NCBI GenBank assembly: GCA_024401215.1
Contig: JAKSLL010000038.1
Location: 1-33,322, forward strand
Reading direction: 5' to 3'
Length of the DNA: 33,322 nucleotides
Source of the DNA: Bacteroidaceae bacterium
GTDB lineage: Bacteria; Bacteroidota; Bacteroidia; Bacteroidales; Bacteroidaceae
The position numbers were made by a program, and so were the translations under genes. Shown here one piece after another: positions 5,222 through 25,846 of this stretch; the stretch's first letter is position 1, and each line of letters begins with the position of its first letter. The notes beneath the pieces are model-generated. The model ran no database searches. It had not been told where the DNA came from and saw nothing but the letters and a program-made list of their open reading frames with translations.

Positions 5222-5354
5222 CATACAAAGAATTTGAAAGCCTAACATCTTAAAAATGAACGATTAACAAATAATGACTTCAATACGTCAACAGGTTATT
5301 CAAACTCTTTGAAAGCATTTTCATGGTTTCGATAAGAAATTTATCGTACTTTTG
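5222..5354 (+). promoter_or_regulatory. Island operator-promoter A (two dyads + -7 box)
   Basis: The distal dyad CATACAA-AGAAT-TTGAAAG is at 5222-5240 and the proximal dyad TATTCAA-ACTCT-TTGAAAG at 5297-5315. The right arms begin at 5234 and 5309, 75 bp apart. The -7 box TACTTTTG at 5347-5354 lies 38 bp after the start of the proximal right arm, with a -33-like TTTC at 5327-5330. It drives the gene at 5382. It is one of five promoters with this geometry. Confidence 0.75.
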
Positions 5355-5381
5355 CATCATTAAACAAATAAATAAAGAATT

Positions 5382-6575
5382 ATGAGCAATATGACAACAA
5401 ATATGACAAACAGTTTTAAAACATGGGTTAAAGCTCCAGTGGGAACATACGGCAAGAGCGTTGACGATCCAGTAGTAAAATCAGATTCTTCTTATCAGAC
5501 TTATCTGAATAATGCAGTACAGGGAATTTTAGAAAGTCCTGCGAAAAGTATTATTCCCAATAGGTATCTTGCAACGATTTTCAATGATAATGACTACCTT
5601 ACTATTATTGAGGGATTTATTTACAATGAAGATCTGCTTTTTGCTCTTACTACAGCTGAAGTCGTATTGAAATTTGTAAATAGTGGCATTGATTATCACA
5701 AGAAATCAGGAACATCACTTGATGACAAGAACTACAAAGAATTGCGAAATTCATGTTCCGCACTTAAAGCGTTGCTTATTTATTTAAATAGTAATCAGGT
5801 ATGGATCGACAAGTTTACATGGACATCATCGTATAATACTAAGCAGTTAAGCTCCATCCGTAATTCGTTCCGTAAACCTGATATCCATAAGATTGACGGC
5901 AACGAATGTTTGATGAATGTCAAAGCCTTCGACTTCATCCGTATGGCAATCGAGAATTCCTATTTCTTTGATCCGGATAGCACAATCGACCGACATAAGG
6001 AAATTGTATCGTGTATAACCAACAACCAAGAACTTCCTGCAAGATGGAGTTCGGAAAATGGAGCCTATAACAAAACTGTCTCCACGAAGAAAGATGCTGT
6101 AAATACCTCTGGTTTAGTTTATAAAGGAGTCTATCCTGTTAAAATTGACGGTAACGGCAATGCACAGGTGAAGTCACAAATCAGCGTTTACACAGGATAT
6201 ACCGTTAACGGTGGCATTGACACAATTTTCCAGAATTATAAAATTTCTCATCTCTGGGGCAATGCATACGATCCAAGATATTTCACCAATCTTTGGAACC
6301 TCGTTCTTGTTCCATCATGGGCTAATGATTTGTTGGACAAGGATGAATATGCGCCAGGAGCTTCACCACTGGTTATAAAATTGAAATCAACATTCAAAGC
6401 TATCTGTCTGAAGCACTATAAAATGAAGGACAAGGATTATGATTTCAATTTATGGAACGGTACACCAACTCATCTCTCCAAAGTGGTGAAAGGTGAGTAT
6501 ATGATTAACTGTATAAGCCAACTTCAGTCAGGAGAAAAACTCTCGGCTATAAAGAAAGTATCGGTAAAGGTGTAA
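5382..6575 (+). CDS. Hypothetical protein with HNH-like C-terminal motif
   Basis: The 397-aa cytoplasmic protein is not a family I can name. Its most telling segment is ISHLWGNAYDPRYFTNLWNL followed by VLVPSWANDLLDKDE (about residues 287-322). The spacing of His, then Asn in TNLWNLVLVP, then a polar end recalls the beta-beta-alpha-metal core of HNH nucleases, though the usual final His is replaced by Trp or Asn. It has its own operator-promoter just upstream and is the first gene of the co-regulated island. The N-terminus MSNMTTNMTNS is low-complexity and resembles the start of the next gene (MSEMTN), whose leader is also similar. Nuclease function is inference. Confidence 0.6.
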   Translation: MSNMTTNMTNSFKTWVKAPVGTYGKSVDDPVVKSDSSYQTYLNNAVQGILESPAKSIIPNRYLATIFNDNDYLTIIEGFIYNEDLLFALTTAEVVLKFVNSGIDYHKKSGTSLDDKNYKELRNSCSALKALLIYLNSNQVWIDKFTWTSSYNTKQLSSIRNSFRKPDIHKIDGNECLMNVKAFDFIRMAIENSYFFDPDSTIDRHKEIVSCITNNQELPARWSSENGAYNKTVSTKKDAVNTSGLVYKGVYPVKIDGNGNAQVKSQISVYTGYTVNGGIDTIFQNYKISHLWGNAYDPRYFTNLWNLVLVPSWANDLLDKDEYAPGASPLVIKLKSTFKAICLKHYKMKDKDYDFNLWNGTPTHLSKVVKGEYMINCISQLQSGEKLSAIKKVSVKV

Positions 6576-6589
6576 GAAACATGATATCG

Positions 6590-6597
6590 TACCTTTG
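6590..6597 (+). promoter_or_regulatory. Promoter -7 box for the acidic-protein operon
   Basis: TACCTTTG at 6590-6597 sits in the same TCGTACNTTTGCATCA context as the box at 5347, and the A-rich leader up to the ATG is also similar, suggesting a duplicated promoter and leader. A degenerate half-dyad (AAGAAAG at 6552-6558, 38 bp upstream of the box) is present, but the full two-dyad arrangement is not. Confidence 0.6.
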
Positions 6598-6625
6598 CAT
6601 CACCAACATAAACAAATAAAGGATT

Positions 6626-7195
6626 ATGAGCGAAATGACAAACAAAACGATTGCAGTAGTAGCAAATGAGAAGAACAAGATGCACAAGAGCATCTTTGAA
6701 GACGAGCTGTTCGACGATGTTTCTTCTTATGACTCAAATGAACTTAATTGCAGAATAGGCATTCCTATGGAGTTCTCCTTCTATAAGGACAGAGGATTCA
6801 TCAAGAAAGGTGACAGTATCTGCATTGATGATTGCAAGATGTCGGAGGTAACCACCGAACTTGATTCTCTCTTTGGCAAACTGAGCTGTCATAATACTGC
6901 CAATGATTTTGATTTGTCAGCAGATGCACTGGTATATGAGATTTCAGATTCCATAAATGGTGAGATGATACAGGAACAGCTTGTTGCGTCTGTTGTGCCA
7001 GAAGATGATGCTCAGAAAAGGTGCTTCTTCGAGGAGATTCTCAATGCCCCGAAAGACAAGGACTATGCCGTACTGGCTTTTGATTGGAAAGAACAGCGAA
7101 TTGTGTTCTACGGCATGTATAAGCTTTGTCAGATAGAAAGCTGTATGCAGCAAAGGGTAATAATGAATTTGTTAGATGAAAACTACACCATCTAA
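6626..7195 (+). CDS. Acidic hypothetical protein (189 aa)
   Basis: The protein has no recognised domain, signal peptide or membrane segment. It is acidic and Ser/Asp-rich in the first 70 residues (SIFEDELFDDVSSYDSNELN). The C-terminal half contains SVVPEDDAQKRCFFEEILN and a beta-rich stretch DYAVLAFDWKEQRIVFYGMYKL. It is the first of five or six closely spaced genes up to 9552, all lacking recognisable homologies, and follows its own promoter at 6590. Confidence 0.6.
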   Translation: MSEMTNKTIAVVANEKNKMHKSIFEDELFDDVSSYDSNELNCRIGIPMEFSFYKDRGFIKKGDSICIDDCKMSEVTTELDSLFGKLSCHNTANDFDLSADALVYEISDSINGEMIQEQLVASVVPEDDAQKRCFFEEILNAPKDKDYAVLAFDWKEQRIVFYGMYKLCQIESCMQQRVIMNLLDENYTI

Positions 7196-7271
7196 CATTA
7201 ACGACAAAGGAATATGAATACAAGAATTTCAGAAGAAGACTGAATACACATATCAACACAATAAAGACATC

Positions 7272-7595
7272 ATGGAACAGAAGAACAACGAAAAAGACAT
7301 TGAAGCTCGCAAGTTGATTGCCCAGATTCAGAGTGGCGATACAGAAGCGGAGGCTCGTTTGGTAGAACTCCACAAAGAATTTACTGCATCTGTGATGCGA
7401 CAGTACAAAGGAAAGGGACTATCAGATGAGGAAATAACTTCTGCCTGTGAATCTGCATTGAAGCGTGCAGCACGCAAGTTTGACCTGGACAAGGATTTCG
7501 CATTCATCTCTTATGCAATATGGTGGATGAAAGAAGGAGTACTTCAGGCTCAGAAAGCAAAACGAATGGAGAAAATTAATCAGATTTTTACATAA
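7272..7595 (+). CDS. Orphan sigma-70 region 2 protein
   Basis: The 107-aa protein aligns by eye with sigma-70 region 1.2/2 only: IAQIQSGDTEAEARLVELH, then VMRQYKGKGLSDEEI, ALKRAARKFDLDKDFAFISYAIWWMKEGVLQA. The YAIWWMKE segment corresponds to the YAxWWIRQ signature that contacts the -10 element. Regions 3 and 4 are absent and no remnant is seen, because the next gene starts 5 nt after the stop. It could bind core polymerase as a minimal sigma, or act as a decoy or modulator of the full sigma factor encoded at 13384 in the same island (inference). ATG at 7272 is the first good start after the preceding gene. Confidence 0.75.
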   Translation: MEQKNNEKDIEARKLIAQIQSGDTEAEARLVELHKEFTASVMRQYKGKGLSDEEITSACESALKRAARKFDLDKDFAFISYAIWWMKEGVLQAQKAKRMEKINQIFT

Positions 7596-7599
7596 TAAT

Positions 7600-8106
7600 A
7601 TGACAAAGACGGAACTTGGGAACAGCGATGCCCTGAAAGCTATAATAGAGCAGTTGGAGAACAACCAGGACAAGACAATAACAGTTGTGGCGACTGTTGG
7701 AGAACTGGACTTTACAGAGGAGATTACAATACCCAAAGAGGCATGGGACAAGATTGTAGAATCCGCTGCCTATGAGGTAAAGTGCTCCATAGAAGACGAA
7801 GAAGGTCCGGATAGCGACATCACACCAGATGTTGCTTACCACCTCTGTAGCCGTGGCATAACCATAGCGGGCATTCTTGATCAATGCAGCAAACTCGAAG
7901 AGCTTCGCAACCGCATGTTGGTTGATTTGCTTACAAACGAAGAGTATGAACGTGATGAATATTCTTTGCTTGAAGGCATCGAAGATTTCAAGGTTGCCAT
8001 GTGCGGTTACAATGATGCTGACGAGGACATGTCAGACAAGCAGATTGTCTTTATACACGATGATTATCCACAAATCCTTATTGATGAAATAGAAGCAAAA
8101 CTATAG
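7600..8106 (+). CDS. Acidic hypothetical protein (168 aa)
   Basis: Very acidic soluble protein with repeated Asp/Glu clusters (SIEDEEGPDSDITPD, YNDADEDMSDKQ). No known domain is recognised. The start lies 5 nt after the mini-sigma stop, implying co-transcription and coupled translation. High negative charge could suit binding to polymerase, a sigma factor or a nucleic-acid-binding protein, but this is speculation; function unknown. Confidence 0.6.
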   Translation: MTKTELGNSDALKAIIEQLENNQDKTITVVATVGELDFTEEITIPKEAWDKIVESAAYEVKCSIEDEEGPDSDITPDVAYHLCSRGITIAGILDQCSKLEELRNRMLVDLLTNEEYERDEYSLLEGIEDFKVAMCGYNDADEDMSDKQIVFIHDDYPQILIDEIEAKL

Positions 8107-8112
8107 AACAGA

Positions 8113-8577
8113 ATGATAACTACAGAGTACTGCCACACAGAAATCCATATTAACGGACGTCAACCACTGCCATACCAGTTGGCGGTAACGGAGTACGAGG
8201 ACAGGGAAAACTGGCTACCTATCGAGCTGCCGGAAGGTGTTTTCTTCGAGCTGCATACTATCGAAACTGATGAACATTGGACAAACGATTCTAATCGCGA
8301 GGTATTCGTCTGTCCCTACCATGTAGTCGTCCTGGACGAAGCTGAAGATGAATTCGAAGGACATTTTCTCACTGAGGATGAAGCCGTGAGATTCGTATTA
8401 GATACCAATAGTAACATTCCACGTAATGTCACTACGATGAATGAGATAAATGACTACTGTAAGGACAACGGTCTTAAAGTCCTTTGGTATTACTCCAAGA
8501 CGGAGATTTCCAACATCTGTCCTCCGATAACAGCAAAGATGATAAAATGCCTCTTGGAGGCAACTCATATACAATAA
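8113..8577 (+). CDS. Hypothetical protein (154 aa)
   Basis: The start is 7 nt after the previous stop, so it belongs to the same operon. The protein is acidic in the middle (VVLDEAEDEFEGHFLTEDEAVRFV) with a predicted mixed alpha/beta character and five scattered Cys. No family recognised. The region VCPYHVVVLDEAEDEFEGHF could form a beta-hairpin core. Nothing in the sequence shows membrane or export signals. Confidence 0.6.
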   Translation: MITTEYCHTEIHINGRQPLPYQLAVTEYEDRENWLPIELPEGVFFELHTIETDEHWTNDSNREVFVCPYHVVVLDEAEDEFEGHFLTEDEAVRFVLDTNSNIPRNVTTMNEINDYCKDNGLKVLWYYSKTEISNICPPITAKMIKCLLEATHIQ

Positions 8578-8595
8578 CAATAAAATCAGATAACT

Positions 8596-8970
8596 ATGGA
8601 ACTTAAAGAAATTGGAATTGGTGTAATGATCAACGATAACGACGAAGGTGAGATTGCTACAATGCCAGCAGCTGAGGTTGATGAACTCGTAGCCTTATAC
8701 AACAAAGCATTGGCAACCGTTCTCGTTGGCATAGAGGAAGAAGACCATCACCTGACATTCGACCCATGGCTCAAGGAGCAGAATCCAGCACTCTATGACA
8801 AAGCAATGAAGGCATTCATGGAGGAATACTCTACTCGCATGAGCAGCGAACCTATGGACGATGACGAATGGGAGATGGCAAATAAGTACGCCTCTCACTA
8901 TCGTGATATTGACGGAGTTTATCTTGATGACAGCAACGATGTGAAGTTTTACCGCTTCTCACATCAATAA
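8596..8970 (+). CDS. Acidic hypothetical protein (124 aa)
   Basis: Small, strongly acidic, probably helical protein (MPAAEVDELVALYNKALATV, MDDDEWEMANKYASHYRDIDG). No recognised domain or localisation signal. It follows the previous gene by 18 nt and is presumably in the operon that begins at 6626. A half-site CTTTCAA lies just downstream at 8973-8979 but has no partner arm or -7 box. Confidence 0.6.
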   Translation: MELKEIGIGVMINDNDEGEIATMPAAEVDELVALYNKALATVLVGIEEEDHHLTFDPWLKEQNPALYDKAMKAFMEEYSTRMSSEPMDDDEWEMANKYASHYRDIDGVYLDDSNDVKFYRFSHQ

Positions 8971-9012
8971 AACTTTCAAAGGTAGCTAAACTGAAACAAA
9001 TTTTAAGGACGT

Positions 9013-9552
9013 ATGAAGATATATATCAAGGCTGACTCGGATTTTGAAAATTGCATATATCCTTGGCGCAAGAATATCGAAGAGCAGATAAAGGAAACGA
9101 CAAGTCTTATTTCTGCGGAGTATGAGACAAGTATCTTTGAGTGGTTCAACACCGAAGGACAATGTCCATATTTCCCTTCATTCATTCAGGAGGATATACA
9201 CGCAAGATATATCAGAAATGGAGCAAGCCATTTTTACTTCGGCGAAACAGGACCATATTATCATTTACTGTTTGCGTGGGAACCTGCTGATTTTATTAAG
9301 TCGAATGACATACTCGATGAAGATGATTATGACGAGGCGCAAGCACTTGCCAGCGCAAAAGAAGAATATGTTGCCGTTTGTAAGAAGTTAGGTGTACAAT
9401 ATGATCACGATCTTAAACTACCTGATGGCTTCGTTTATATAGGATCATACGTTGATGGGCAGGATGAACCTTTGTCACTTCCTGGACTGAAGTTTGAAGA
9501 AGATGATGATGGAACATCCCGTCTTGCCCATTGTATGTTCAGCCGTTTATAA
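9013..9552 (+). CDS. Hypothetical protein (179 aa), possibly frameshifted at its 3' end
   Basis: Soluble protein with aromatic-rich middle (HFYFGETGPYYHLLFAWEPADF) and an acidic linker (NDILDEDDYDEAQALASAKEEY). No family recognised. The frame ends at 9552, but the +1 frame continues to a stop at 9614-9616 and reads SAVYNVNGEQEYRLF then SYKLDDSDEG, which looks like genuine protein and suits the end of this gene. Either a one-base indel near 9530-9550 has truncated it, or the extension is chance. It is the last gene before the operator-promoter at 9634. Confidence 0.55.
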   Translation: MKIYIKADSDFENCIYPWRKNIEEQIKETTSLISAEYETSIFEWFNTEGQCPYFPSFIQEDIHARYIRNGASHFYFGETGPYYHLLFAWEPADFIKSNDILDEDDYDEAQALASAKEEYVAVCKKLGVQYDHDLKLPDGFVYIGSYVDGQDEPLSLPGLKFEEDDDGTSRLAHCMFSRL

Positions 9553-9633: not shown

Positions 9634-9765
9634 CTTTCAAAAGATTTGAAAGCATAACTCGCTTATTGTCAACAGTATTACAAGGGAAATAAGATATCAA
9701 TGTATTTCTTCCAACATCATTGAAAGAAATAGACGCCCAAGGATTCAAAAAATTAAGTACCTTTG
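9634..9765 (+). promoter_or_regulatory. Island operator-promoter B (two dyads + -7 box)
   Basis: The distal dyad CTTTCAA-AAGAT-TTGAAAG at 9634-9652 is a perfect inverted repeat (8-bp arms counting the flanking A/T) and continues as CATAAC. The proximal dyad CTTCCAA-CATCA-TTGAAAG is at 9708-9726. Right arms start at 9646 and 9720 (74 bp apart), and the -7 box TACCTTTG at 9758-9765 lies 38 bp after the proximal right arm. Drives 9828 onward. The gene-less stretch 9553-9827 holds this element and the 24-nt leader motif. Confidence 0.8.
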
Positions 9766-9827: not shown

Positions 9828-9959
9828 ATGCTTATGCTAATGTTCTTATTTGGATTCTTGATTGTGATCTTCGGTGGATTCATCCTCATAACACTTCTGA
9901 AGTTAGTGTTCATGATCATTAGTTGGATTATTTCATTCATCTTAAATATCTTTGGATAA
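9828..9959 (+). CDS. Small single-span membrane protein (43 aa)
   Basis: ATG at 9828 opens a 43-codon frame, almost entirely hydrophobic (MLMLMFLFGFLIVIFGGFI then LITLLKLVFMIISWIISF), enough for one or two membrane spans. It lies directly downstream of the island promoter and the 24-nt leader motif. Its TAA overlaps the ATG of the Cys-rich gene (TAATG), so translation is probably coupled. No charged signature of a known toxin family is obvious, although small hydrophobic peptides of this size include type I toxins and holin-like proteins. Confidence 0.55.
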   Translation: MLMLMFLFGFLIVIFGGFILITLLKLVFMIISWIISFILNIFG

Positions 9960-10255
9960 TGGAAACACTGGATGAAAACGGTGATTTGATAGCCTGGATT
10001 GATGACGACTGGGTTGATTGGTGTTCCACTTGCAAGTCATGTAATGCACTTGGTAAACCGAAATGTGAGTTTCCAGAGATAGCAACGCCAGACACCAAGT
10101 TTCACGAAATCGGTTGTCGTTATGAAGACAAATGTGCGTCATGTACTAAACTCGGAACAGACAAATGTACCCATCCCGACGTTGCAACAAAAGATACATT
10201 CTTCGATGACATTCCTTGTACGGATGATCACTGGGAGAGTGTAAAACAATTCTAA
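9959..10255 (+). CDS. Cys-rich protein with two zinc-knuckle-like repeats
   Basis: The 98-aa protein starts at ATG 9959, overlapping the preceding stop by one base; the longer frame to 9923 would run into the membrane gene. Two tandem repeats are visible: WCSTCKSCNALGKPKCEFP...IGC and KCASCTKLGTDKCTHPDVA...IPC. Each has CxxC plus two later Cys, a pattern suited to metal binding. The linkers repeat an ATPDTKFHEI / ATKDTFFDDI theme. The protein is otherwise acidic. Function unknown; it may serve as an adaptor for the membrane mini-protein or the downstream TPR protein (inference). Confidence 0.65.
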   Translation: METLDENGDLIAWIDDDWVDWCSTCKSCNALGKPKCEFPEIATPDTKFHEIGCRYEDKCASCTKLGTDKCTHPDVATKDTFFDDIPCTDDHWESVKQF

Positions 10256-10286
10256 AAATTAAAGTCAACAATAATTTCTAACTTAT

Positions 10287-12227
10287 ATGGCAATAATAGA
10301 GTATCTCCTGATAGGAGAAAAAGACAGTTTGACACGTTTGGAGTCTGCTATTCAGATAGCACAGCAAAAGAGTGAGAATGAAGATGTAAACTTCATGAAC
10401 GCATTGTTCACTGAGCTCGGGATCATGGAGGGAATAAATTCTCTTCTGGTGCGCAGCGATCGTGAGATAGATTGGAATACTTCTTACTCTGTTGTGGAAG
10501 GTATGAGGGTAATCACTACAGATGATGGGCTCTTGCATCCAACAATGTTAATCAAGGAAAATACCGACTATTCAGACAATACAAATCTCAATCATATCAT
10601 TAAGGTCTTGAATAACAGTATTCGTGTGGACCAGACACGTTATTATGGCAGAGGTGACTGTTGGACTACAGGTTCCGAAGGACAGTTCCCAGAGAAGTAT
10701 CATGTGAACTGCGAAGAAGTATGCACATTGGGTGTGGATGACTACTTTATGGATGAGGAGGATGTCATTAATGTCTTCAAGAACAAACTCTCAATTCCTG
10801 AAAGTATCTGCAGTATCGGTGGAATAACGGAATGGTGTGAACAGGAAGACATAGAGTGCGATATCGATGAGGTGGAGGAAAGATATACAATGAATATTGA
10901 TCGTGGAGATTGTGGCCTCGACTTGGAACAAATGCTTTCAGATGCACGACCAGCAGATAGTGAAGCCGCCATCAATGATTTATTCAGAAAGATATACAAT
11001 GAGGTGTCTCCTTGCATTTCCATAAGCAAAGGCTTTAGAATAGGAAGAAAATTGAGCTACAGTAGTAAGACGCTTATCTTCGCATACAAGATTGAGAAGG
11101 AACTTCTGAGTAAGTATATCATTGACTTTGGATGTAAAGAGGTCAAGGATAGCTACTTTGTTGGTCAGGACTACGATGATAAGCTGGGGGATTTCTCAAC
11201 AGATGAAATGAGCGTTGAAGATGCTCTGTTCGCATATATAGATACGAAGAATATAGAGTATCTGAAGATTGCAGCAGAGACTGGTCATAAGGAGGCTCAG
11301 TTTATGTATTATAAAGACCTAAGGTTCGACGACGAGCCTGCTTCTTTGCCTTGGCTCATAAAAGCAGCAGAGAACGGTCATGCAGAAGCTCAATATGAAC
11401 TGTACCGTAAATACCACAACGTTGACAAACAAATGCGCACTCCTTCCGATGATGAGAAAGAAATGATGTGGCTGAAGCGTTCTGCTGACGCTGGACATAA
11501 AAATGCCTTAGAGTGTATCATTGACGAAGACATTGACGATGAGGAGATGTATAAATATTTGCTCAAGGCTGCTGATGCAGGTATTGATAGTGTCTTTGAT
11601 AAACTGGGAAATCTGGCATACGACAGGCAAGATTATGCTGAGGCTGCACGTTGGTGGAGTAAGGGAGTTGGTTGGAATAAAGATAAATATGGCGAGATTC
11701 TGTTTGACGGTCTCGGTGTGGAACATGACTATGTAAAGGCTCTTGAATGCTACAAAGGATTCGCATCCGACATCTTCGATCTTATGCGCCAGATGGGCAT
11801 TGAACCTTCGCAGGAGAAAGCTAAAGAAATTGTAGGCGCGATAATAAGAGAAAGAAGACAGGAGCAATTAATACAAGCTGCAAATGATGCCCTTTGTGAC
11901 GAAGATTATGAAAAGTGCATTGAACTCTATGATAAGGCTGGAGGTATAGAAGTTCTGAGCGAAGCCTCTGACCTTAACAACTATGCATGGAGCTGTTGCA
12001 TGACAGGACAATACGATAAAGCTGTGGAATCTGCTCTGAAAGCTCTTGAATTAGATTGCTCGGGTGCCATTCTGGACACTATAGCAACTGCATACGAAGG
12101 TTTAGGTCGTTACGATGAAGCACTGAAGTATTACGAACAGTCACGCGATGCTTATCTTGCTGATGAAGATGAAGACTCTGCTGAGAGTGAATCTGAAAAA
12201 ATCAAGGCATTACAAGAGAAGAAATAG
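10287..12227 (+). CDS. Sel1/TPR-repeat protein (646 aa)
   Basis: The first 300 residues have no recognised fold and include an acidic Cys-containing region (WCEQEDIECDIDEVEERY). From about 310 onward there are Sel1-type repeats (AAETGHKEAQFMYYKDLR, AAENGHAEAQYELYRKYH, SADAGHKNALECI), then canonical TPRs (NNYAWSCCMTGQYDKAVESA; ATAYEGLGRYDEALKYYEQS) near 565-625, and an acidic tail ending at LQEKK. Such solenoids bind partner proteins. No signal peptide or membrane segment. It is in the unit driven by operator-promoter B, 31 nt after the Cys-rich gene. Likely a scaffold or sensor; partner unknown. Confidence 0.8.
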   Translation: MAIIEYLLIGEKDSLTRLESAIQIAQQKSENEDVNFMNALFTELGIMEGINSLLVRSDREIDWNTSYSVVEGMRVITTDDGLLHPTMLIKENTDYSDNTNLNHIIKVLNNSIRVDQTRYYGRGDCWTTGSEGQFPEKYHVNCEEVCTLGVDDYFMDEEDVINVFKNKLSIPESICSIGGITEWCEQEDIECDIDEVEERYTMNIDRGDCGLDLEQMLSDARPADSEAAINDLFRKIYNEVSPCISISKGFRIGRKLSYSSKTLIFAYKIEKELLSKYIIDFGCKEVKDSYFVGQDYDDKLGDFSTDEMSVEDALFAYIDTKNIEYLKIAAETGHKEAQFMYYKDLRFDDEPASLPWLIKAAENGHAEAQYELYRKYHNVDKQMRTPSDDEKEMMWLKRSADAGHKNALECIIDEDIDDEEMYKYLLKAADAGIDSVFDKLGNLAYDRQDYAEAARWWSKGVGWNKDKYGEILFDGLGVEHDYVKALECYKGFASDIFDLMRQMGIEPSQEKAKEIVGAIIRERRQEQLIQAANDALCDEDYEKCIELYDKAGGIEVLSEASDLNNYAWSCCMTGQYDKAVESALKALELDCSGAILDTIATAYEGLGRYDEALKYYEQSRDAYLADEDEDSAESESEKIKALQEKK

Positions 12228-12248
12228 TCCAGAACGATAACAAGAAGT

Positions 12249-12272
12249 GCCGATTCGCTAAAAAGGAGGTAG
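12249..12272 (+). promoter_or_regulatory. 24-nt leader motif, copy 2
   Basis: GCCGATTCGC-N4-AAGGAGGTAG with TAAA as the core, identical in both 10-nt flanks to 9785-9808. It precedes the gene at 12296 by about 24 nt. A CTCCTT at 12377-12382, inside that gene, could pair with the AAGGAG. This is possibly a translation-control element. Confidence 0.6.
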
Positions 12273-12295
12273 TCAAGAAATTGATATATTAAACT

Positions 12296-12700: not shown

Positions 12701-12709
12701 GACTTCTAA

Positions 12710-16926: not shown

Positions 16927-16936
16927 TCTGTGATAG

Positions 16937-17002: not shown

Positions 17003-17101
17003 CAAGCAGACATAGACAATAGCAATGTTATCATCAACATAAAGCATAGCTTTCATGAGCAAATATCAACTCTTTTACACCACAATATCATACATATTAC
17101 A

Positions 17102-17809: not shown

Positions 17810-17811
17810 CT

Positions 17812-19194
17812 ATGATGAATAATGATTTCCCTAATATTGCCAAAGAATACAAGCGTACGGTAGCTGGTCGCTTCATGCTTGTTGAAGGCGCAAAGCTGAA
17901 AGATAAGATCTCAGGCGAGGACTTCCTTGTCACAAAAAAGATGGATGGTATCATGCTCGTGGTGTTCGTTCGTGATGGTGAAGTAAGCGCCTATACCTCA
18001 CATGGTAATCCTGTACCATGTAAGTTGCCATGCATCCAGGAACTCAAACACACCGTCACCCAGTATGGCATCGCCAACTTGACGCTCGGTGCAGAACTCT
18101 ATGCCACTATTCGTGATGATGGTCGTGAGCGAGTGTGTGACGTGGCGAAGGCTATTGCTTATCCAGAACTGCATGACAAACTTCACATTGCACCGTTTGA
18201 CATCATTGACATTGAGGATGAACCATGTGATGTGCCTCATTACAAGGAGAAATGGACCAAGCTGAACAGATGGTTCAATGGCGGAACACTCGTTCGTCAG
18301 GTTGAAGCGAAAGCTGCGTCAAGCAAAAACGAAGTAGATGAAATCTACAACGAGTGGGTTAAAGAAGGTGGAGCGGAAGGACTCGTAGTTCATAGCGAGC
18401 AACCAATAATATATAAGGTGAAGCCACGCCACACCATTGATGCCGTTATCATAGGTTATACAGTTGGTGAGGACATTCATGCAGATATGATGCGCGATAT
18501 GCTGCTTGCTGTTATGCGTCCTGACGGTGTGCTGCAACAGTTTGCTTCTACTGGTAATGGCTTAACGGAAGACAATCGCAGAGAGTTCTATGCTATGCTT
18601 CAAGGCGACAAGGTTGAGTCGGAGTATGTAGAAACAGATTCTCGCAACGTAGCATTCCAGATGGTCAAGCCAAGAGTGATTGTGGAGATGTCGGGAATAG
18701 ACTTCGTGACGGAAAACGCTGCTGGCGAGCCAAAGCAGAACATGCTGTTGAAATATGATGATGAACAAGGATATACCGTTGTTATGAAGACACCGGGAGC
18801 AGTGGTTCACAGTCCTGTGTTTGAGCGAATCAGGAATGATAAATCATGCAATGCCAGCGATATACGTCTAAAACAGCTTACAGATCTGTGTTCGTTCTCT
18901 GTGAAACGAGCAGTTTCAAGAGAGACATTACCCAACAGCCTGCGAATGCTAAGACGAGTGTTCGTTAAACAAACTGGTAGCAAGATAATGATACAGAAGT
19001 ATGTAGTATGGAAGACTAACAAGGAACCGACAGGCGTATATCCTGCCTACGTACTGCATATAACCGATTATAGCAGCACAAGACAAGAGTTGCTGAAACG
19101 CGACCTGAGAGTATCAGACAGCGAAAAGCAGATAATGGACATCTGCCAGGAAATGATTGATAATAACGTAAAAAAAGGTTGGGAGGAAATCTGA
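17812..19194 (+). CDS. ATP-dependent DNA ligase-like protein
   Basis: The 460-aa protein contains nucleotidyltransferase motifs in order: motif I TKKMDGIML with the AMP-accepting Lys at 43 (K-x-D-G), motif III LGAELYAT near residue 90, motif IV EGLVVHSE, and motif V YKVKPRHTIDAVIIGY. These place it in the ATP-dependent ligase superfamily. The catalytic core is intact; the C-terminal 150 residues are divergent from ordinary OB-fold ends. No N-terminal DNA-binding domain precedes the core. The gene is coupled to 17102 (2 nt) and to the helicase (2 nt), implying a nick-sealing step in the same pathway. An RNA-ligase activity cannot be excluded from sequence. Confidence 0.85.
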   Translation: MMNNDFPNIAKEYKRTVAGRFMLVEGAKLKDKISGEDFLVTKKMDGIMLVVFVRDGEVSAYTSHGNPVPCKLPCIQELKHTVTQYGIANLTLGAELYATIRDDGRERVCDVAKAIAYPELHDKLHIAPFDIIDIEDEPCDVPHYKEKWTKLNRWFNGGTLVRQVEAKAASSKNEVDEIYNEWVKEGGAEGLVVHSEQPIIYKVKPRHTIDAVIIGYTVGEDIHADMMRDMLLAVMRPDGVLQQFASTGNGLTEDNRREFYAMLQGDKVESEYVETDSRNVAFQMVKPRVIVEMSGIDFVTENAAGEPKQNMLLKYDDEQGYTVVMKTPGAVVHSPVFERIRNDKSCNASDIRLKQLTDLCSFSVKRAVSRETLPNSLRMLRRVFVKQTGSKIMIQKYVVWKTNKEPTGVYPAYVLHITDYSSTRQELLKRDLRVSDSEKQIMDICQEMIDNNVKKGWEEI

Positions 19195-19196
19195 CA

Positions 19197-22100
19197 ATGA
19201 ACAAATTTCACATACAGTTATACGAATTCGTAAAGCGTAATGGTGAGCGTTACATCACGTTGCCACAACTGACAGCCATGATGGACGATGAAGGACTCTT
19301 CCGTACATACGCCAACAAACCTTACAAGCTTCTCTTTCGTTTCATGGTAAACGAGGGACTCGTAAAACAGTTTTATGACTTGGGCGAATGGAAGGATGAC
19401 GAGGCAGAGAAGCTGGAGCAGGACATTGAGAACCGATTTTATGGAAATGCTGATGCTCACTATGCCCTTCAGTCAATCGCATACGCTCTTGGCTGGATAA
19501 AGGATGTTGACGATTATGACGATGGCGGCATAGACATCTGTCAGAATTTCGGTTTAGAAGAAGATGCCGTTGAATATATAGCTCATGGTTCTAAGAAGTG
19601 CATCGGTACACTCATTCCTTCTGCAATGGCTTTGCCTGTGCATCACCAACTGAATGTCATTGCTCATGAAGAAGGAAGTGTGGCAGAGTTCGTAATGTCG
19701 GAGATGCAGATTGCCACAAAGAAGGAACTTGATGAGAAGATCAGCGGTGAGCAGATTGATGGTGTCGCTATGGCTATTCGTCAGATGCGCAATGGAAGAG
19801 GTTTTATCATTGGTGATATGACTGGTATCGGCAAAGGTCGTCAGTTGGCGATGTTGCTTAAATGGGCTACTCTCCAGGCGAATCGTCCTGTGTTCGTAAC
19901 GGAGAAATCTGTGTTGTTCAATGACCTGTTCCGTGACCTCTTCGACGTAGGGTATGGCGACCTGAGACCTTTTATCCTGAATACAGACAAGGAGGCTAAG
20001 ATAACCGATGCAAATGGCAACATCATCTATAATCTTCCTGATGAAATGGAAATGAACGAGTTCCGTGACACTAAGAAACTGCCTGCAGGTTATGATTTCC
20101 TGCTTCTCACATATTCGCAACTTAGCCGTGATAGAGCAAAGAACTGGAAGGCAGACTGTGTGATGGACACCATCGAGGGGGCTTACCTTCTCATGGATGA
20201 AAGTCACAATGCCAGTGGTGAAGAGAGTAACGTAGGTGAGTTTTTTCGCGAGGCTGTACAGAAATCATGCGGAGTATGTTTCGCGTCTGCCACATACGCC
20301 AAATATCCTTCGAGTATGCCGATTTATGCAATGAAAACTGCTATGGGCGAAGCAGATGTGTCAGCAACGCAGCTTATAGATATAATCTCACATGGTGGAC
20401 CAATACTTCAGGAGGTTATGGCAAAAGGACTTGTTGCTTCTGGTTCTATGATACGTCGCCAGCGTGACATGAAGGATGTTGAGCGTACTCTCTATACAAG
20501 TGATAATGTGAAAGATATTGCAACAGTGCAGGGAAGATACGATAAGGTTATTGACCTCATTTCAGATATCCATGATTTTCAGGATGAGTTCATTACTCCT
20601 TATCTTAATTGTCTCTCTGCTGAGCAGATTGTGTGCAAGAAACATAAGGTCAGCAAGAATGAAGTGTTCATCAGAAAGAAGACTCACATATCATACATGC
20701 ACTTCTCTTTGCGTATGACGCCAACCATTCGTCAACTTCTCTTCTCAATAAAGACTGATGATGCAATTCAGGCAACACTAGCAGAGTTGAAAGCAGGTCA
20801 CAAGCCTATTTTGCAGATCAACAGGACAATGGAAAGCAACTATACTAATCTCGTACAACCGGGTATGGCCTTGTCAAATGCTGAGTTTGCTCTCAGTCTC
20901 CTTAATTGTCTCAAGGATATGTTTAAGTACAAGGCATTGGCTGCAACAAAGAAAGGTAAGACAACCAAGTATTATGAAGTAGAACAGACTTTCGACTTGA
21001 AAGATCTGAAAAACTTCTTCAATGACGATGATGCGAAACAGGCTTACGATTTCATTGTCAGGAAAATAAATAATACGCACACAGATTTGCCTTTAAGTCC
21101 CATTGACTACTTTGTGCAGACACTGGAAAATGAAGGTTACAAAGTTGGAGAGATGACCCAACGTAAGCTGGCCTTAAAATACGAGAAGATTAAAGACGGA
21201 GCGACAGGAAAGACTTATGCTTTCATGCGAAAGAAGATTGACAAGAAACGTATGGCAGCAGATTTCAACAATGGGACTCTGGACGTATTGATAGGTAATC
21301 GTGTTATGTCCTCGGGCATTTCCCTTCATTGCAGTGATGCTTTCAAAGACAAGCGTAAGCGAACCGTCATAACCTGGGAACATCAAGATAGTGCAGACAG
21401 GCAGACACAATTTGATGGACGTGCAGACAGAACAGGTCAGTTGCAGCATTGTTCCTTTGTAACGTTATCATCAGCAATACCTGCCGAACAACGTTTTCTC
21501 ATGATGAATGAGCGTAAACTTCGTTCATTGAACGCCAATGTAGAAGCCAACCAGCACGCTGATGATGCAGGTTTTGACATGCTGAACAAATATGGCACTA
21601 AGGTGGCTTTGGAATATCTTCACGACAACCCTGAGAAAGAAATCTATTTCATGGATGAAGGTGACAGTCCATTCGTCAAAGCTGATGACCAAACGGTATT
21701 CATTATTCGCTTCATGCGTACACTGGGTTTGCTTAAATGTGATGAGCAAAGAGAAATACTTGATGACGTAATGCACAGATACACTGAGCTCATCAACTAT
21801 CTTGACGAAATAGGTGAAAACGATCTGAAGCCCAATGTGTTGCCTCTCAATGCCACACTGCTTAACAGGTCGGTGTTCAAAAATGGCAAACGCAGTTCTA
21901 CAAGTGTCTTTGGTAATGATGCAATGTTGGATGAAGTGGAAGTTGATGTGCTGAGCAGACCTCTTACATCGGTGCAGATAAAGGCTATTCTCCCAACTTT
22001 GACAAGTACTGATGAGCTGTTAAAACAGTTAAAGGCACATTGCAAACATAAAGCGGAAAACATAAAGGCGTATTACATTCAACTACAGAATGATGCAACA

Positions 22101-22787
22101 CGACAACTTAACCTTCTTCAAAGTTCGGGAGCACATTATACTCCAAGTCATGTGGCGCAATTGGAAGAACGCGCAAACAATACAGATATGATGAATATGC
22201 AGATAGAAAGGGTTGAAACGCAGACAGGTTTGTTATGTCAACTTATCAAGAAGTTTACTAACGGTCAAGCAGTTGGCATTCCGATGGCGCTTGTTGCAGA
22301 AGGAGAAATTGAAGACAACAGACTTGTGGATTACGTTTCCGTTGGGCTGTTCCTAGGCTTTAAGGTCGTAGGAAGCAAGACTACACGATCAAGCATCAAG
22401 GCTGTATTCGTAGTGAACGATGGCAGGTGCAGGTTGGACATACCTCTTACAGAAGAAGGGAAGTTGATAACTATTCACAACCAGACGAATCTTGGCGTGA
22501 TGAGACAGAGATTATCAAAGGTTACCATTGATACATGGGATTCTTTACTGTCTAATTCCACACGCGAAAGAGCTTATATTGTTACAGGAAACCTATTGTC
22601 AGGGATAGCGTATGCCAAAGAGTTCGGCAAGAATGTTGGTAACAGGAAGCTGCGCCAGATAGCAATGAACAAAGGTCGTGGACATCTCATCACTTACACC
22701 GATGATATGGGACGCGTAAAGAATGGCTATATGCTTTCAAGGATGTTCCGTCCAACAGATCTACAGCTTTATGCTCCTAAGCCATAG
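19197..22787 (+). CDS. Strawberry-notch-type SF2 helicase
   Basis: I chose ATG 19197, preceded by GGGAGG at 19181-19186, over the TTG six codons earlier; this gives 1196 aa. Helicase motifs are clear: Walker A TGIGKGRQ (from residue 209), Walker B DESH (334-337), ASATYAKYPSSMPIYAM typical of Strawberry-notch-like proteins, and motif VI DGRADRTGQ (about 740-748). The long C-terminal half is typical of this group. The enzymes are predicted to remodel or unwind DNA or strip bound proteins; some bacterial ones occur in phages and mobile elements. It sits 2 nt after the ligase and 25 nt before the kinase gene, in the operon from promoter D. Confidence 0.9.
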   Translation: MNKFHIQLYEFVKRNGERYITLPQLTAMMDDEGLFRTYANKPYKLLFRFMVNEGLVKQFYDLGEWKDDEAEKLEQDIENRFYGNADAHYALQSIAYALGWIKDVDDYDDGGIDICQNFGLEEDAVEYIAHGSKKCIGTLIPSAMALPVHHQLNVIAHEEGSVAEFVMSEMQIATKKELDEKISGEQIDGVAMAIRQMRNGRGFIIGDMTGIGKGRQLAMLLKWATLQANRPVFVTEKSVLFNDLFRDLFDVGYGDLRPFILNTDKEAKITDANGNIIYNLPDEMEMNEFRDTKKLPAGYDFLLLTYSQLSRDRAKNWKADCVMDTIEGAYLLMDESHNASGEESNVGEFFREAVQKSCGVCFASATYAKYPSSMPIYAMKTAMGEADVSATQLIDIISHGGPILQEVMAKGLVASGSMIRRQRDMKDVERTLYTSDNVKDIATVQGRYDKVIDLISDIHDFQDEFITPYLNCLSAEQIVCKKHKVSKNEVFIRKKTHISYMHFSLRMTPTIRQLLFSIKTDDAIQATLAELKAGHKPILQINRTMESNYTNLVQPGMALSNAEFALSLLNCLKDMFKYKALAATKKGKTTKYYEVEQTFDLKDLKNFFNDDDAKQAYDFIVRKINNTHTDLPLSPIDYFVQTLENEGYKVGEMTQRKLALKYEKIKDGATGKTYAFMRKKIDKKRMAADFNNGTLDVLIGNRVMSSGISLHCSDAFKDKRKRTVITWEHQDSADRQTQFDGRADRTGQLQHCSFVTLSSAIPAEQRFLMMNERKLRSLNANVEANQHADDAGFDMLNKYGTKVALEYLHDNPEKEIYFMDEGDSPFVKADDQTVFIIRFMRTLGLLKCDEQREILDDVMHRYTELINYLDEIGENDLKPNVLPLNATLLNRSVFKNGKRSSTSVFGNDAMLDEVEVDVLSRPLTSVQIKAILPTLTSTDELLKQLKAHCKHKAENIKAYYIQLQNDATRQLNLLQSSGAHYTPSHVAQLEERANNTDMMNMQIERVETQTGLLCQLIKKFTNGQAVGIPMALVAEGEIEDNRLVDYVSVGLFLGFKVVGSKTTRSSIKAVFVVNDGRCRLDIPLTEEGKLITIHNQTNLGVMRQRLSKVTIDTWDSLLSNSTRERAYIVTGNLLSGIAYAKEFGKNVGNRKLRQIAMNKGRGHLITYTDDMGRVKNGYMLSRMFRPTDLQLYAPKP

Positions 22788-22812
22788 ATAGAATAACTTC
22801 AAAATATCGACT

Positions 22813-24096
22813 ATGAATACAGAATTGAAAGAAAATACAACTTTGATACTCCGCAACGGAGATGTTGTTAAGGTAAACAGATTACTTGGTAGTGGCGGAC
22901 AGGGATTTGTCTATTCCGTAACCGTGAATGGCGAAGAATGTGCGCTGAAATGGTACAAGCAGATGCCATCTGACATATTTTATGAGAACCTGCAGAAAAA
23001 TGCCGAGGAAGGAGCACCGTCACCATCATTCCTTTGGCCTATAGCAGTGACAAAAAAGAAGTTTGGCAGTTTCGGTTATATCATGCCGTTGAAGCCAGAT
23101 GGTTACTTTGAATTCAGTGAGTATAGGTTGGCAAAAGTTCGTTTTTCTTCCTTTAGGGCTATAATAAATGCAGCCATTGAACTGTGTGAAGCATTTAGGC
23201 TTCTTCATGCCAAAGGACTTTCGTATCAGGATCTGAATGATGGCGGTTTCTTCATACACCCAGAAACAGGACATCTGCAGATATGTGACTGTGACAATGT
23301 TTTTCCTCATGGCGAGAGTTCGGGAGTCTTGGGCAAGGCAAGGTATATAGCACCAGAGATCGTCATGGGCAAGAATATGCCAAACAGTTACTCTGACCGC
23401 TTCAGTATGACGGTGATGATTTTCATGCTCTTCTGCATTGATCATCCGTTTGAGGGAATGAACGTTGTACGCCATCCATGTATGACAGAAGAAATAGAGC
23501 GACGACTTTTTGGCGAACAGTTGTGTTTTATGTATGATGATGCCGATACAAAGAACAGACCTGTTCGCGGAGTTCATTCCAATGCAATACTTATGTGGAG
23601 CTTGTTGCCTAATGTGCTTAGAGACACTTTCAAGCAAGAGTTTTCCAAAGGGAAATTGGATTCTCCCGATAAGAGGTTAACGGAAATGCAGTGGATAGAT
23701 ATTCTTACAAGAGTTCGTGACTCACTAGTGAGATGTCCGCTGTGTGGTGACGAATCGTTCATTACCAGAACAGGCGTTTCGTGCATTAACCATCATTGCA
23801 ATGGGGCACACTCTGTAATGAGGTGGTTTGAGACTGGTGACCGTTCCATACCTCTTATAAATAATAACATACTGCGTACAGGTAAAGGTGACATGATAAC
23901 TGGACGAGTAGTATTAAAACCAGGAACCAGGGATGTTCTTCTCGTACAGAATCTCACAAAGCATGATTGGAGAATCATCACTCCATCAAACAAAAGCGTT
24001 ACCGTCGCTCCACGCGGTTTCTTTCCTGCCAAGGTAGGAATGAAAGTGGAGATAAACGACAATGAATCAACAATAACATATACAATAAACAACTAA
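22813..24096 (+). CDS. Ser/Thr protein kinase with C-terminal zinc ribbon
   Basis: The 427-aa protein has a kinase domain at about 10-270: glycine loop GSGGQGFVY (26-34), ATP Lys46, catalytic loop YQDLNDGG with D140 (the usual HRD is QD), DCD at 159-161 in place of DFG, and APE (YIAPEIV). These variants resemble the kinases of TerY-P triads. A zinc ribbon follows, C308-x2-C311-x12-C324-x4-C329, then a C-terminal beta-rich module. No membrane segment. It is immediately followed by vWA and PP2C genes, forming the kinase part of a phospho-signalling trio. Likely targets are the neighbouring ligase, helicase or vWA protein (inference). Confidence 0.85.
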   Translation: MNTELKENTTLILRNGDVVKVNRLLGSGGQGFVYSVTVNGEECALKWYKQMPSDIFYENLQKNAEEGAPSPSFLWPIAVTKKKFGSFGYIMPLKPDGYFEFSEYRLAKVRFSSFRAIINAAIELCEAFRLLHAKGLSYQDLNDGGFFIHPETGHLQICDCDNVFPHGESSGVLGKARYIAPEIVMGKNMPNSYSDRFSMTVMIFMLFCIDHPFEGMNVVRHPCMTEEIERRLFGEQLCFMYDDADTKNRPVRGVHSNAILMWSLLPNVLRDTFKQEFSKGKLDSPDKRLTEMQWIDILTRVRDSLVRCPLCGDESFITRTGVSCINHHCNGAHSVMRWFETGDRSIPLINNNILRTGKGDMITGRVVLKPGTRDVLLVQNLTKHDWRIITPSNKSVTVAPRGFFPAKVGMKVEINDNESTITYTINN

Positions 24097-24110
24097 ACAC
24101 TTTAAATATT

Positions 24111-24953
24111 ATGGCAATTACAGATTATGAACTTACTCCTGCGGCTCGTCGCACACTTAACCTTTTTCTTATGATTGATGTCTCTGGCAGTATGGCCGGA
24201 GAGAAGATTGCAGCTGTCAATGATGCTGTGCGCAATGTGATTCCTATTATCAATAATATCGGAGAGAGCAATCCTGACGCAGATATCAAAATCTCAGCAA
24301 TGACTTTCAGCAACTCTGTTGACTGGCTGACACCTCAACCTGTTACTGCATCAGGGCTGACATGGAGTGATCAGTCGGCTTCGGGTATGACATGCCTGGG
24401 CGAGGCTTGCAAGGAACTTAACCGCCAACTGTCTCACAAGAATGGTTTCCTTAAGTCTGCTTCCGGTTCTTATGCACCAGTCATTATTCTTCTGAGTGAT
24501 GGAGGACCAACTGATGATTTCACAGCAGGTATGAATGCACTCAACAATAATGCGTGGTTCCGTCATTCTACCCGTATAGCTATTGCTATAGGCAATGATG
24601 CCGATACGAACGTTCTTGCTACGTTTACAGGTAATCCTGAGCTTGTGTTCCGCGTACACAACATTGATGCACTAAAGACAGTTATAAAGGTTGCAGTTGT
24701 AACTTCATCAATGGTTTGCAGCCAGAGCTCTTCGGTCAGCTGTGGTGGAACTTCGGTTAGCTGCGGAGGAGCAATAGCATCTCCAGCTAATGGTTCGGTT
24801 GCAACCGCCAATGCAGGAATGCCAGTAGGAAGTACACCTTCAAAGTCTCAACTGACTGCTGACGCGATAGCAATGGAGCTGCAAGGTGAACTGGGTATCG
24901 ACGTTGGCGATGATGCCCTGATGAATGAACTGGATATTGACGAATTTGATTGA
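24111..24953 (+). CDS. vWA domain protein (TerY-like)
   Basis: The 280-aa protein has a complete MIDAS: D23-V-S25-G-S27 in LMIDVSGSMAG, a Thr in GMTCLGEAC, and LSDGGPTDD (near 130). The fold covers residues about 15-200. The tail has a Cys/Ser motif repeated (SVSCGGTSVSCGG) and an acidic end (DDALMNELDIDEFD). It matches the TerY family, which bind metal and act as adaptors. It lies 14 nt after the kinase and 2 nt before the PP2C start, so this is the usual kinase-vWA-PP2C arrangement. Cytoplasmic; no signal peptide. Confidence 0.88.
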   Translation: MAITDYELTPAARRTLNLFLMIDVSGSMAGEKIAAVNDAVRNVIPIINNIGESNPDADIKISAMTFSNSVDWLTPQPVTASGLTWSDQSASGMTCLGEACKELNRQLSHKNGFLKSASGSYAPVIILLSDGGPTDDFTAGMNALNNNAWFRHSTRIAIAIGNDADTNVLATFTGNPELVFRVHNIDALKTVIKVAVVTSSMVCSQSSSVSCGGTSVSCGGAIASPANGSVATANAGMPVGSTPSKSQLTADAIAMELQGELGIDVGDDALMNELDIDEFD

Positions 24954-24955
24954 TC

Positions 24956-25711
24956 ATGAGATACGTACATAACCAAACAGTAAAGGGTGCGAGTCATGCT
25001 GACGCAGGAAAGGAGTGTCAGGATGCCTCGCTATCCTGGACAGACGATGAACTGGCTATCATCGTTGTAAGCGATGGTCATAGCGGAGAAAAGCATAACA
25101 ACAGTGCTATCGGTGCTGCGCTTGCTTGCCAGATAACGCAAAACCATCTTCGTGAATTTAGCCTTAATGTTGATGATGAGTGGCTAAGCCACAAACCTGA
25201 AGATATCGTCAAACAGCTTTCAGCAAGTATATTAGCAGAATGGACTCGTGAGATAGCCGAACTTGAAGAGGGCGCAGATGTCATGTCCTATGGCTGTACC
25301 CTCATTGCTTATGTCCAAACAAGACATTTCTGGTTAGCATTGCAGATTGGCGATGGCAGATGTGTTATGCATAACAAGGCAGACGTGTGGATTCAACCCA
25401 TTCCATGGGATGATCGATGTTTTCTCAATATGACCACCTCACTTTGTGATGAGAATGCAGCTAATGAGTTTCGTTTTGCATACGGAGATGTAGAATCGAT
25501 TCCGAAAGCTGTGTTCCTTTGTTCGGATGGTATAGATGGCACATTTGGTTCCGGAGAATTGCTTTATGGATTTTATGGCAACATCATAAAGTCTATAAAT
25601 GATGATGGTATAGAGAATGTGGTTTCGCAACTTCCGGAGGTGCTGTCTCATTACAGTAGAACTGTCAGTAAAGATGACATGAGCATAGCTTTTGTCTTGA
25701 ACGATACATAA
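24956..25711 (+). CDS. PP2C-type Ser/Thr phosphatase
   Basis: ATG 24956 (251 aa) is preferred over the TTG overlapping the vWA stop. PP2C motifs are visible in order: VVSDGHSG (metal-binding Asp), SYGCTLIAYV, LQIGDGRCVM, FLCSDGIDGTFG, and SKDDMSIAFVL (C-terminal metal Asp). All key acidic residues are present, so it should be active. It would reverse phosphorylation by the kinase encoded two genes upstream. The gene ends just before operator-promoter E. Confidence 0.9.
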   Translation: MRYVHNQTVKGASHADAGKECQDASLSWTDDELAIIVVSDGHSGEKHNNSAIGAALACQITQNHLREFSLNVDDEWLSHKPEDIVKQLSASILAEWTREIAELEEGADVMSYGCTLIAYVQTRHFWLALQIGDGRCVMHNKADVWIQPIPWDDRCFLNMTTSLCDENAANEFRFAYGDVESIPKAVFLCSDGIDGTFGSGELLYGFYGNIIKSINDDGIENVVSQLPEVLSHYSRTVSKDDMSIAFVLNDT

Positions 25712-25714
25712 TAC

Positions 25715-25846
25715 CTTTTGAGTTTATTGAAAGCATAAAGTTCTGAAATAGTTGATGTTATCAAAATGTCAACTAATTATAGGACTATGCTTTCAATGAG
25801 CTTGAAAACAAAAAAGTGGTTTTGCTATTATTTCTTCATACCTTTG
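25715..25846 (+). promoter_or_regulatory. Island operator-promoter E (AAA+ ATPase)
   Basis: Distal dyad CTTTTGA-GTTTA-TTGAAAG at 25715-25733, followed by CATAAA. Proximal dyad CTTTCAA-TGAGC-TTGAAAA at 25790-25808. Right arms start at 25727 and 25802 (75 bp apart). The -7 box TACCTTTG at 25839-25846 is 37 bp after the proximal arm, with a -33-like TTTG at 25821-25824. Confidence 0.75.

Follow-up and report, generated by a model that had tools for sequence, protein, structure and literature searches.

A two-site dyad operator shared by five promoters of a conflict-type gene island in a Bacteroidaceae bacterium

Described systems closest to the locus

Class I and class II promoters under CRP/FNR-type control carry tandem upstream sites for dimeric activators, and the site of FNR itself reads TTGAT-N4-ATCAA. 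Here, we discuss an arrangement of comparable form in a 33,322-nucleotide stretch of DNA from a Bacteroidaceae bacterium (assembly GCA_024401215.1, contig JAKSLL010000038.1, positions 1 to 33,322; hereafter "the window"). In this stretch, paired dyads of the type CTTTCAA-N5-TTGAAAG lie upstream of five operon heads, and the island under the operator is ~23 kb long. As at CRP/FNR-type promoters, the palindromes are located upstream of the -35/-33 region, in helical phase both with one another and with the promoter. However, their sequence and half-site order differ, and the same pair, with its members 74-76 bp apart, is found at five promoters. The XRE/CI-type operator arrays of phages and mobile elements, which are closely spaced and overlap the promoter, offer a second comparison. 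Common to both are dimer-sized, AT-rich palindromes in arrays, and a truncated XRE-like helix-turn-helix (HTH) gene stands at the island end here; in contrast to those arrays, the sites here are spaced far apart and lie upstream of the promoter.

Two further systems resemble the locus in other respects. In the BrxR/WYL system, as described in the part of PMC9122601 consulted, a single regulator binds a defence island at two inverted repeats, each with its halves 5 bp apart, and one of these lies ahead of a promoter. BrxR is a repressor with 11-bp arms and its R-BOX1 lies downstream (same part of PMC9122601), whereas the repeats discussed here have 7-bp arms and are paired, both upstream, at five promoters. 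The spacer length therefore agrees with the BrxR type, while neither 11-bp repeats nor, in the window ORFs scanned, a cognate winged HTH-WYL regulator was found. With respect to gene content, Kaur et al. 2020 (PMC7159879) describe, in the part of the article consulted, triads of a kinase, a PP2C and a stand-alone vWA protein in nucleoside triphosphate-dependent conflict systems. In the window, a kinase (22813; genes are named after their first coordinate), a vWA (24111) and a PP2C gene (24950) are likewise adjacent, and Cys pairs in the tail of the kinase resemble, by eye, the zinc ribbon of the triads in that article. Unlike those triads, as far as that part of the article goes, the genes here are embedded with a sigma factor, a DNA ligase and a Strawberry-notch helicase under a common operator; the main text of the article does not contain the words "sigma factor", "DNA ligase" or "strawberry". 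Collectively, the form of the operator is of a known kind, and no description of this operator was found in the titles and abstract openings of the papers listed.

Twin dyads upstream of five operon heads

A dyad score, i.e., the number of matches out of 14 to CTTTCAAN5TTGAAAG, was computed at all 33,304 positions of the window. Eight positions score at least 12 (16079, 9634, 25790, 9708, 25715, 13294, 5297 and 5222), and each of them is one of the ten copies that an earlier note had listed upstream of 5382, 9828, 13384, 16176 and 25881. The ninth copy, at 13220, scores 11, as do three positions outside that list (31542, 6474 and 5568), so that nine of the ten copies reach at least 11. The coordinates of all ten copies were correct.

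All of these sites are on the forward strand. At promoter 1, the distal dyad at 5222..5240 (CATACAAAGAATTTGAAAG, then CCTAAC) starts 2 bp past the stop of the open reading frame (ORF) 4444-5220 and is followed by the proximal dyad at 5297..5315 (TATTCAAACTCTTTGAAAG) and the -7 box at 5347..5354 (TACTTTTG) of the operon headed by 5382. Promoter 2 has a perfect distal dyad at 9634..9652 (CTTTCAAAAGATTTGAAAG, then CATAAC), a proximal dyad at 9708..9726 (CTTCCAACATCATTGAAAG) and a -7 box at 9758..9765 (TACCTTTG), and its operon is headed by the 43-aa ORF 9828-9959. At promoter 3, which serves the sigma factor operon, the sites are at 13220..13238 (TTTTCAATGTTCTTAAAAA, then TATAAC) and 13294..13312 (CTTACAAATAGGTTGAAAA), with the -7 box at 13343..13350 (TATCTTTG). 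Promoter 4 (operon 16176-25711) combines a perfect proximal dyad at 16079..16097 (CTTTCAAAATGGTTGAAAG) and a -7 box at 16129..16136 (TACCTTTG) with a distal site at 16003..16021 (TTAGCAACAATTATAAAAG, then CATAAC) that matches the dyad at only 9/14 positions: the symmetry is mostly gone, and AAAAGCATAAC and the spacing are retained. Promoter 5, finally, has its sites at 25715..25733 (CTTTTGAGTTTATTGAAAG, then CATAAA) and 25790..25808 (CTTTCAATGAGCTTGAAAA) and its -7 box at 25839..25846 (TACCTTTG), ahead of the AAA operon 25881-28179.

The geometry is nearly invariant and was measured exactly as the earlier note had it. From promoter 1 to promoter 5, the distal and proximal copies are 75, 74, 74, 76 and 75 bp apart, and the distance from the proximal right arm to the -7 box is 38, 38, 37, 38 and 37 bp. 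At 10.5 bp per turn, 74-76 bp corresponds to ~7 turns, which would place both sites on one face of the DNA. The arm-to--7 distance is constant to one base, which implies that a bound protein would touch RNA polymerase or leave room for it. In all five cases, 30-31 bp separate the end of the proximal dyad from the -7 box downstream; dyads above the -33 region at a constant promoter distance, as in class I/II promoters, are consequently seen at 5/5 promoters in the window. At promoter 4, the spacing is still 76 bp despite a terminator-like hairpin with a T run (16025..16061, forward strand, z -6.5) that is 3′ of the preceding operon and falls between the two sites.

The distal and proximal sites are not equivalent: the CATAAC extension is present on the distal site only, and NNTAA follows the distal copy at 5/5 promoters and the proximal copy at none. 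Two different proteins might therefore be involved, a dimer at the proximal dyad and another protein that reads TTGAAAGCATAAC asymmetrically at the distal site. In keeping with this, the distal left arms match at only 4-7 of 7 positions, and promoter 4 has lost most of its distal dyad yet retains AAAAGCATAAC. However, 4/5 distal copies are still dyads (11-14/14) that share the proximal sequence, and in a homologous island (see below) a diverged distal copy is the better dyad (13/14). We regard the involvement of two proteins as improbable.

Conservation and chance

Pairs of dyads scoring at least 11 at a distance of 73-77 bp occur four times in the window, and never (maximum 0) in 200 dinucleotide shuffles of it. 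The pattern AAAGNNTAAN{62,67}TTGAAARN{30,31}TAYYTTTG likewise gives 4 matches in the window and 0 in 100 shuffles. The concern that the motif might be equally common in shuffled sequence, raised in the earlier note as grounds for rejecting the operator, is thus dispelled. Of 70 aligned columns, 24 around the distal and 20 around the proximal sites agree in at least 4/5 promoters, compared with a mean of 8.1 and a maximum of 18 in 2000 random placements. The shuffles, the random placements and the left-arm scores given below reject a chance origin of the pairs.

Mean pairwise identity across the five promoters is 0.85 for the proximal and 0.69 for the distal arms, 0.80 for the distal CATAAC extension and 0.90 for the -7 box. 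The N5 spacers, at 0.26 and 0.24, do not exceed the shuffle level, nor does the 60-bp stretch ahead of the distal site (0.31). Identity is raised in three further stretches. In the interval separating the two dyads it is 0.36, against a shuffle mean of 0.29 and a shuffle maximum of 0.36; in the 28 bp that precede the -7 box it is 0.38 (mean 0.29, maximum 0.40), and in the 12 bp that follow this box 0.57 (mean 0.33, maximum 0.52). Conservation hence goes beyond the arms only, and some common promoter context may be present.

These values bear on the possibility that the sites have no dedicated regulator and were either inherited with a promoter cassette that was duplicated inside the island or act as a signal in DNA structure. 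Leader duplication does occur here, as the leader before ORF 6626 (6590-6626) resembles that of 5382 (ATCGTACNTTTGCATCA...AAACAAATAAA...ATTATGAGC), and the three raised stretches are what a cassette might leave. But this copied leader is without dyads, the N5 spacers and the upstream flank are shuffle-like where the arms are conserved, and the arms persist in a second, diverged island. Since the spacers and flanks are at chance level, recent simple copying of the promoters is disfavoured, the three somewhat raised stretches notwithstanding, and we consider it very improbable that the sites are no more than such a cassette or structural signal.

Specificity within the genome and the order

For whole genomes, the two-block pattern TTGAAAN{67,70}TTGAAAN{31,33}TANNTTTG was used, which is too strict to recover the more diverged promoters 3 and 4. 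It has three matches in the 4.35-Mb genome, all on one strand of this contig's window (promoters 1, 2 and 5). The earlier note had named occurrence at unrelated chromosomal promoters as a second reason to abandon the idea; there is no match outside the window in this genome, whose assembly is 93.55% complete, so that some promoters are outside view. A general chromosomal regulator is accordingly unsupported. The 392 other genomes searched in the order contain 24 stray matches, spread over 23 of them, compared with ~13 for the reversed control (counted by eye).

With up to two mismatches allowed, the genome has 62 single dyads, versus 32 for the control, and 8 of these 62 fall within the 33-kb window. 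Only two dyads with at most one mismatch are found outside it. One (C202) is inside an ORF and the other (C90) lacks TAnnTTTG in the 1.7 kb examined; judged from their surroundings, neither is a promoter site.

A homologous island in Prevotella pectinovora

A scan of the contigs of 84,980 species with a three-block pattern yielded 61 stretches, and the sole contig with two of them is contig12 (16,782 bp) of Prevotella pectinovora P4-76. It carries a homologous island, ~90-94% identical in DNA over window positions 12242-16925, 17094-17954 and 20028-28400, with orthologous proteins that are 60 to 98% identical over their aligned parts. The left arms do not form part of the scan pattern and therefore test it independently: they match at 10-13/14 in the four window and the two P. 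pectinovora matches and at no more than 8/14 in the other 59 stretches.

Both sites are kept at 3/3 alignable promoters (those of the sigma, 16176 and AAA operons), with distal/proximal scores of 13/10, 9/13 and 12/13, spacings of 74, 76 and 75 bp and arm-to--7 distances of 38 bp throughout; the -7 box of the 16176-type promoter reads TACCTTTA. The sigma promoter is the most diverged between the islands (37/124 compared non-box columns differ). Its distal copy in P. pectinovora, CTTTCAGTCAGTTTGAAAG, scores 13/14 and is a better dyad than that of the window: positions 1 and 19 have turned in concert from T..A into C..G and positions 5 and 15 can now pair, while position 7 has changed the opposite way. 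In the whole 3.3-Mb P. pectinovora genome, the two-block pattern has two matches, both in its island. Upstream of the 5382 homologue, contig12 begins and cuts off that promoter. This is the only homologous island with most of the genes that was found.

Protein 14347 was detected in the window's own genome only among 45 genomes of its genus, and its P. pectinovora homologue is 97% identical. P. pectinovora, whose genus has more than 249 genomes in that database, apparently belongs there to another genus than the host of the window. The island has probably moved between genera, given this distribution of protein 14347.

The P. pectinovora island is reduced. It lacks ~2 kb that lie, in the window, between the beginning of the ligase gene and the helicase gene (17954 to 20028; L143 7454-7700), as well as any equivalent of window 6579-9833 and of 10053-12242, the stretch with the TPR gene. 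P. pectinovora also has a second, decayed island (L162, 15,281 bp) beside a DUF2779 gene that is 76% identical to window gene 414; it holds remnants of 14347 and PP2C, and its flanking genes look chromosomal.

Activation or repression

Judged by sequence comparison, the island-specific two-site operator is real and is retained in the second island; this portion of what the earlier note proposed is well supported by the shuffles, the genome scans and the P. pectinovora island. Its interpretation as the binding sites of a cooperating dimeric regulator is partly supported. The position rules for class I/II activators are relevant here, as the proximal dyad lies above the -33 region, which speaks for an activating rather than a blocking position. 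We moderately favour the view that the pairs form the operator of a dimeric regulator dedicated to the island that would activate the five operons, with the distal dimer acting cooperatively. Symmetric 7-bp arms around a free 5-bp spacer are the kind of site read by a dimer. Dimer binding, joint filling of both sites, cooperation or looping, and activation are what we infer from the symmetry, the ~7 turns and the position. An activator appears more likely than a repressor, and one dedicated regulator probably switches the whole island jointly.

The proximal dyad is centred ~40 bp ahead of the -7 box, near -52 when counted from the presumed start. From there, a proximal dimer could adjoin RNA polymerase as an activator at promoters with poor -33 elements, and a distal dimer, aided by the CATAAC extension, could raise occupancy cooperatively. 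The five operons, with the extra sigma, ligase, helicase, kinase, vWA, PP2C and AAA genes, would then be switched on together. The housekeeping sigma factor of Bacteroides recognizes TAnnTTTG at -7 and TTTG near -33, according to the part of PMC7366714 consulted; by eye, TTTG is present 17-23 bp above the -7 box at 1/5 promoters.

As the main alternative, the same operator might bind a repressor, two dimers looping or cooperating to silence a costly island until a signal such as phage infection or DNA damage arrives. BrxR sets a precedent, as it represses a defence island through inverted repeats with a 5-bp spacer, one box being upstream of the promoter (PMC9122601, in part); moreover, the ~7-turn spacing suits a small loop, and the XRE-like HTH gene stands at the end of the last operon. 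However, the -7 box and the presumed start are clear of both sites at all five promoters, and the BrxR box that acts in bandshift and reporter assays, R-BOX1, is downstream of its promoter (same part of that source). Nor do the window ORFs scanned have a match to WYL. Repression thus strikes us as possible but rather unlikely.

Several observations weigh against activation by a dedicated dimer, which we nevertheless prefer. One distal site, that of promoter 4, has little symmetry left. The position is not decisive for activation, because the repressor BrxR also has a box, R-BOX2, upstream of a promoter (PbrxA), its other box being downstream of its promoter (PMC9122601, in the part consulted). 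Over the three promoters compared between the islands, 7/84 arm bases and 42/291 other bases are substituted, a rate that is lower in the arms but not significantly so (Fisher p = 0.20). The 9828-type promoter of P. pectinovora has been replaced by another TATCTTTG promoter without dyads; the earlier note held that homologous islands lacking the dyads would count against the operator, and this is the case at one promoter while the three alignable ones keep them. Finally, no regulator gene or binding protein has been identified for the dyads, and the HTH candidate discussed next is truncated at the island edge in both islands.

Candidate regulators

Within the island, the best candidate seen, and the only candidate HTH gene noticed, is the truncated XRE-like HTH gene at 28230..28400 (forward strand), a tentative assignment that is less likely than not to hold. 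Over its first 57 codons, it shares 60% identity with a 253-aa XRE-like protein encoded at the equivalent place in P. pectinovora, a copy that ends beside a transposase-like ORF (by eye). The profile matches are under the cut-off of Pfam for both, i.e., HTH_20 alone for the whole 28230 ORF (E 0.0037) and HTH_3 for the P. pectinovora protein (E 0.0078). Where the alignment of the HTH gene stops, a hairpin-like repeat (GAGGGTGTGTCA...TGACACATCCTC, 28404-28470) resembles the end of an insertion element. A 374-aa HTH relative is encoded in L162 between the homologues of 12710 and 14347, which is the place of the sigma gene in the window; this locus is without a dyad pair, none being present among its top six dyad scores.

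The regulator may also be encoded elsewhere, e.g., as one of five WYL proteins, given that PF13280 has no match in the window contig and five in the rest of the genome. No CRP/FNR-like regulator was matched in the window ORFs scanned.

Genes under the operator

The operon limits are based on strand and gene spacing, and all five putative operons are on the forward strand. Operon 1 (5382..9552) extends from 5382 (397 aa, function not assigned) to 9013 and includes 7272-7595, which encodes a 107-aa protein with sigma region 2 only; a relative of this protein (48% identity) is found at L162 6495-6824. Operon 2 (9828..13198) consists of the small hydrophobic ORF 9828, the TPR protein 10287, 12296 and 12710, the last with a lipoprotein-like reading. 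Operon 4 (16176..25711) encodes 16324 and 17102, both of unassigned function, an ATP-dependent DNA ligase (17812), the Strawberry-notch helicase (19179), the protein kinase (22813), the vWA protein (24111) and the PP2C (24950), and operon 5 (25881..28179) the AAA ATPase 25881 and 27667.

Operon 3 (13384..15996) encodes a group-2-like sigma factor (13384-14256) and a 549-aa protein of unassigned function, 14347. The sigma factor is full length (regions 1.2, 2, 3 and 4) and is 43% identical to the sole other full-length relative found in the genome, which is taken to be the housekeeping sigma. The two have YAVWWIRQSI in common, in what we take to be region 2.4, and differ in the presumed region 4.2 (RTRQLNMNAVEKLR in sigma 13384 versus RVRQIKEKAIRRLR). 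The predicted structure of 14347 is uninformative (mean pLDDT 35). Its similarity to the C-terminal part of the HTH protein (22%, E 0.011) was not confirmed by profile comparison and is not used here.

Directly 5′ of the first operator, ORF 4444-5220 encodes a protein of unassigned function with a HELMH motif (zincin-like). Left of the island, DUF2779 and PDDEXK_4 genes occupy window 414-3764; homologues of both are near an AAA homologue in L068, as is a DUF2779 homologue in L073.

Island modules at other loci

Parts of the island recur elsewhere, and these loci were examined for two dyads scoring at least 11 at the right spacing, a definition that weaker or differently built operators would escape. 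The sigma and AAA genes are found together also in L058, L059 and L065; no dyad pair was present in the regions of the sigma-AAA pair that were examined (7/20). The 16324-17102-ligase trio (window 16324-19194) recurs in L153, L155, L157, L158 and L159, two of which (L155 and L159) also have a sigma factor close by, and all 10 loci examined for this module are without a dyad pair. In L155, AAA_5 and DUF2201 vWA genes share one apparent operon with the trio. The kinase gene occurs in 12/301 genomes including the window's own, i.e., in 11 others, and 0/10 other kinase loci have a dyad pair, 9/10 of them having all three genes of the triad. The operator is absent from the examined loci of every module and therefore appears to belong to this composite island as a whole and to none of its modules singly. 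As an island-wide feature it holds in the homologous island, which keeps the pairs, but does not extend to distant loci with only some of the genes.

A phage or plasmid origin is unsupported. Scans of viral contigs with proteins 10287, 19179, 13384 and 17102 confirmed no relative, and the operator pattern has no match there. Among plasmids, 17102 has no match, and 19179 finds helicases of 27-29% identity among the best 10 of 312 records.

Implications

A more speculative idea, which we put forward as doubtful, is that of a mobile island with its own transcription regime, in which a dedicated two-site activator would turn on all five operons simultaneously and would constitute, with the divergent sigma factor that one of them encodes, a feed-forward switch that captures host RNA polymerase. 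As the sigma factor is in the same regulon, such a switch is directly testable. Moreover, a pull-down on a short fragment would make the regulator findable. The operator provides a sequence handle, checked in two islands, on the joint switching of a multi-operon conflict-type island in Bacteroidales.

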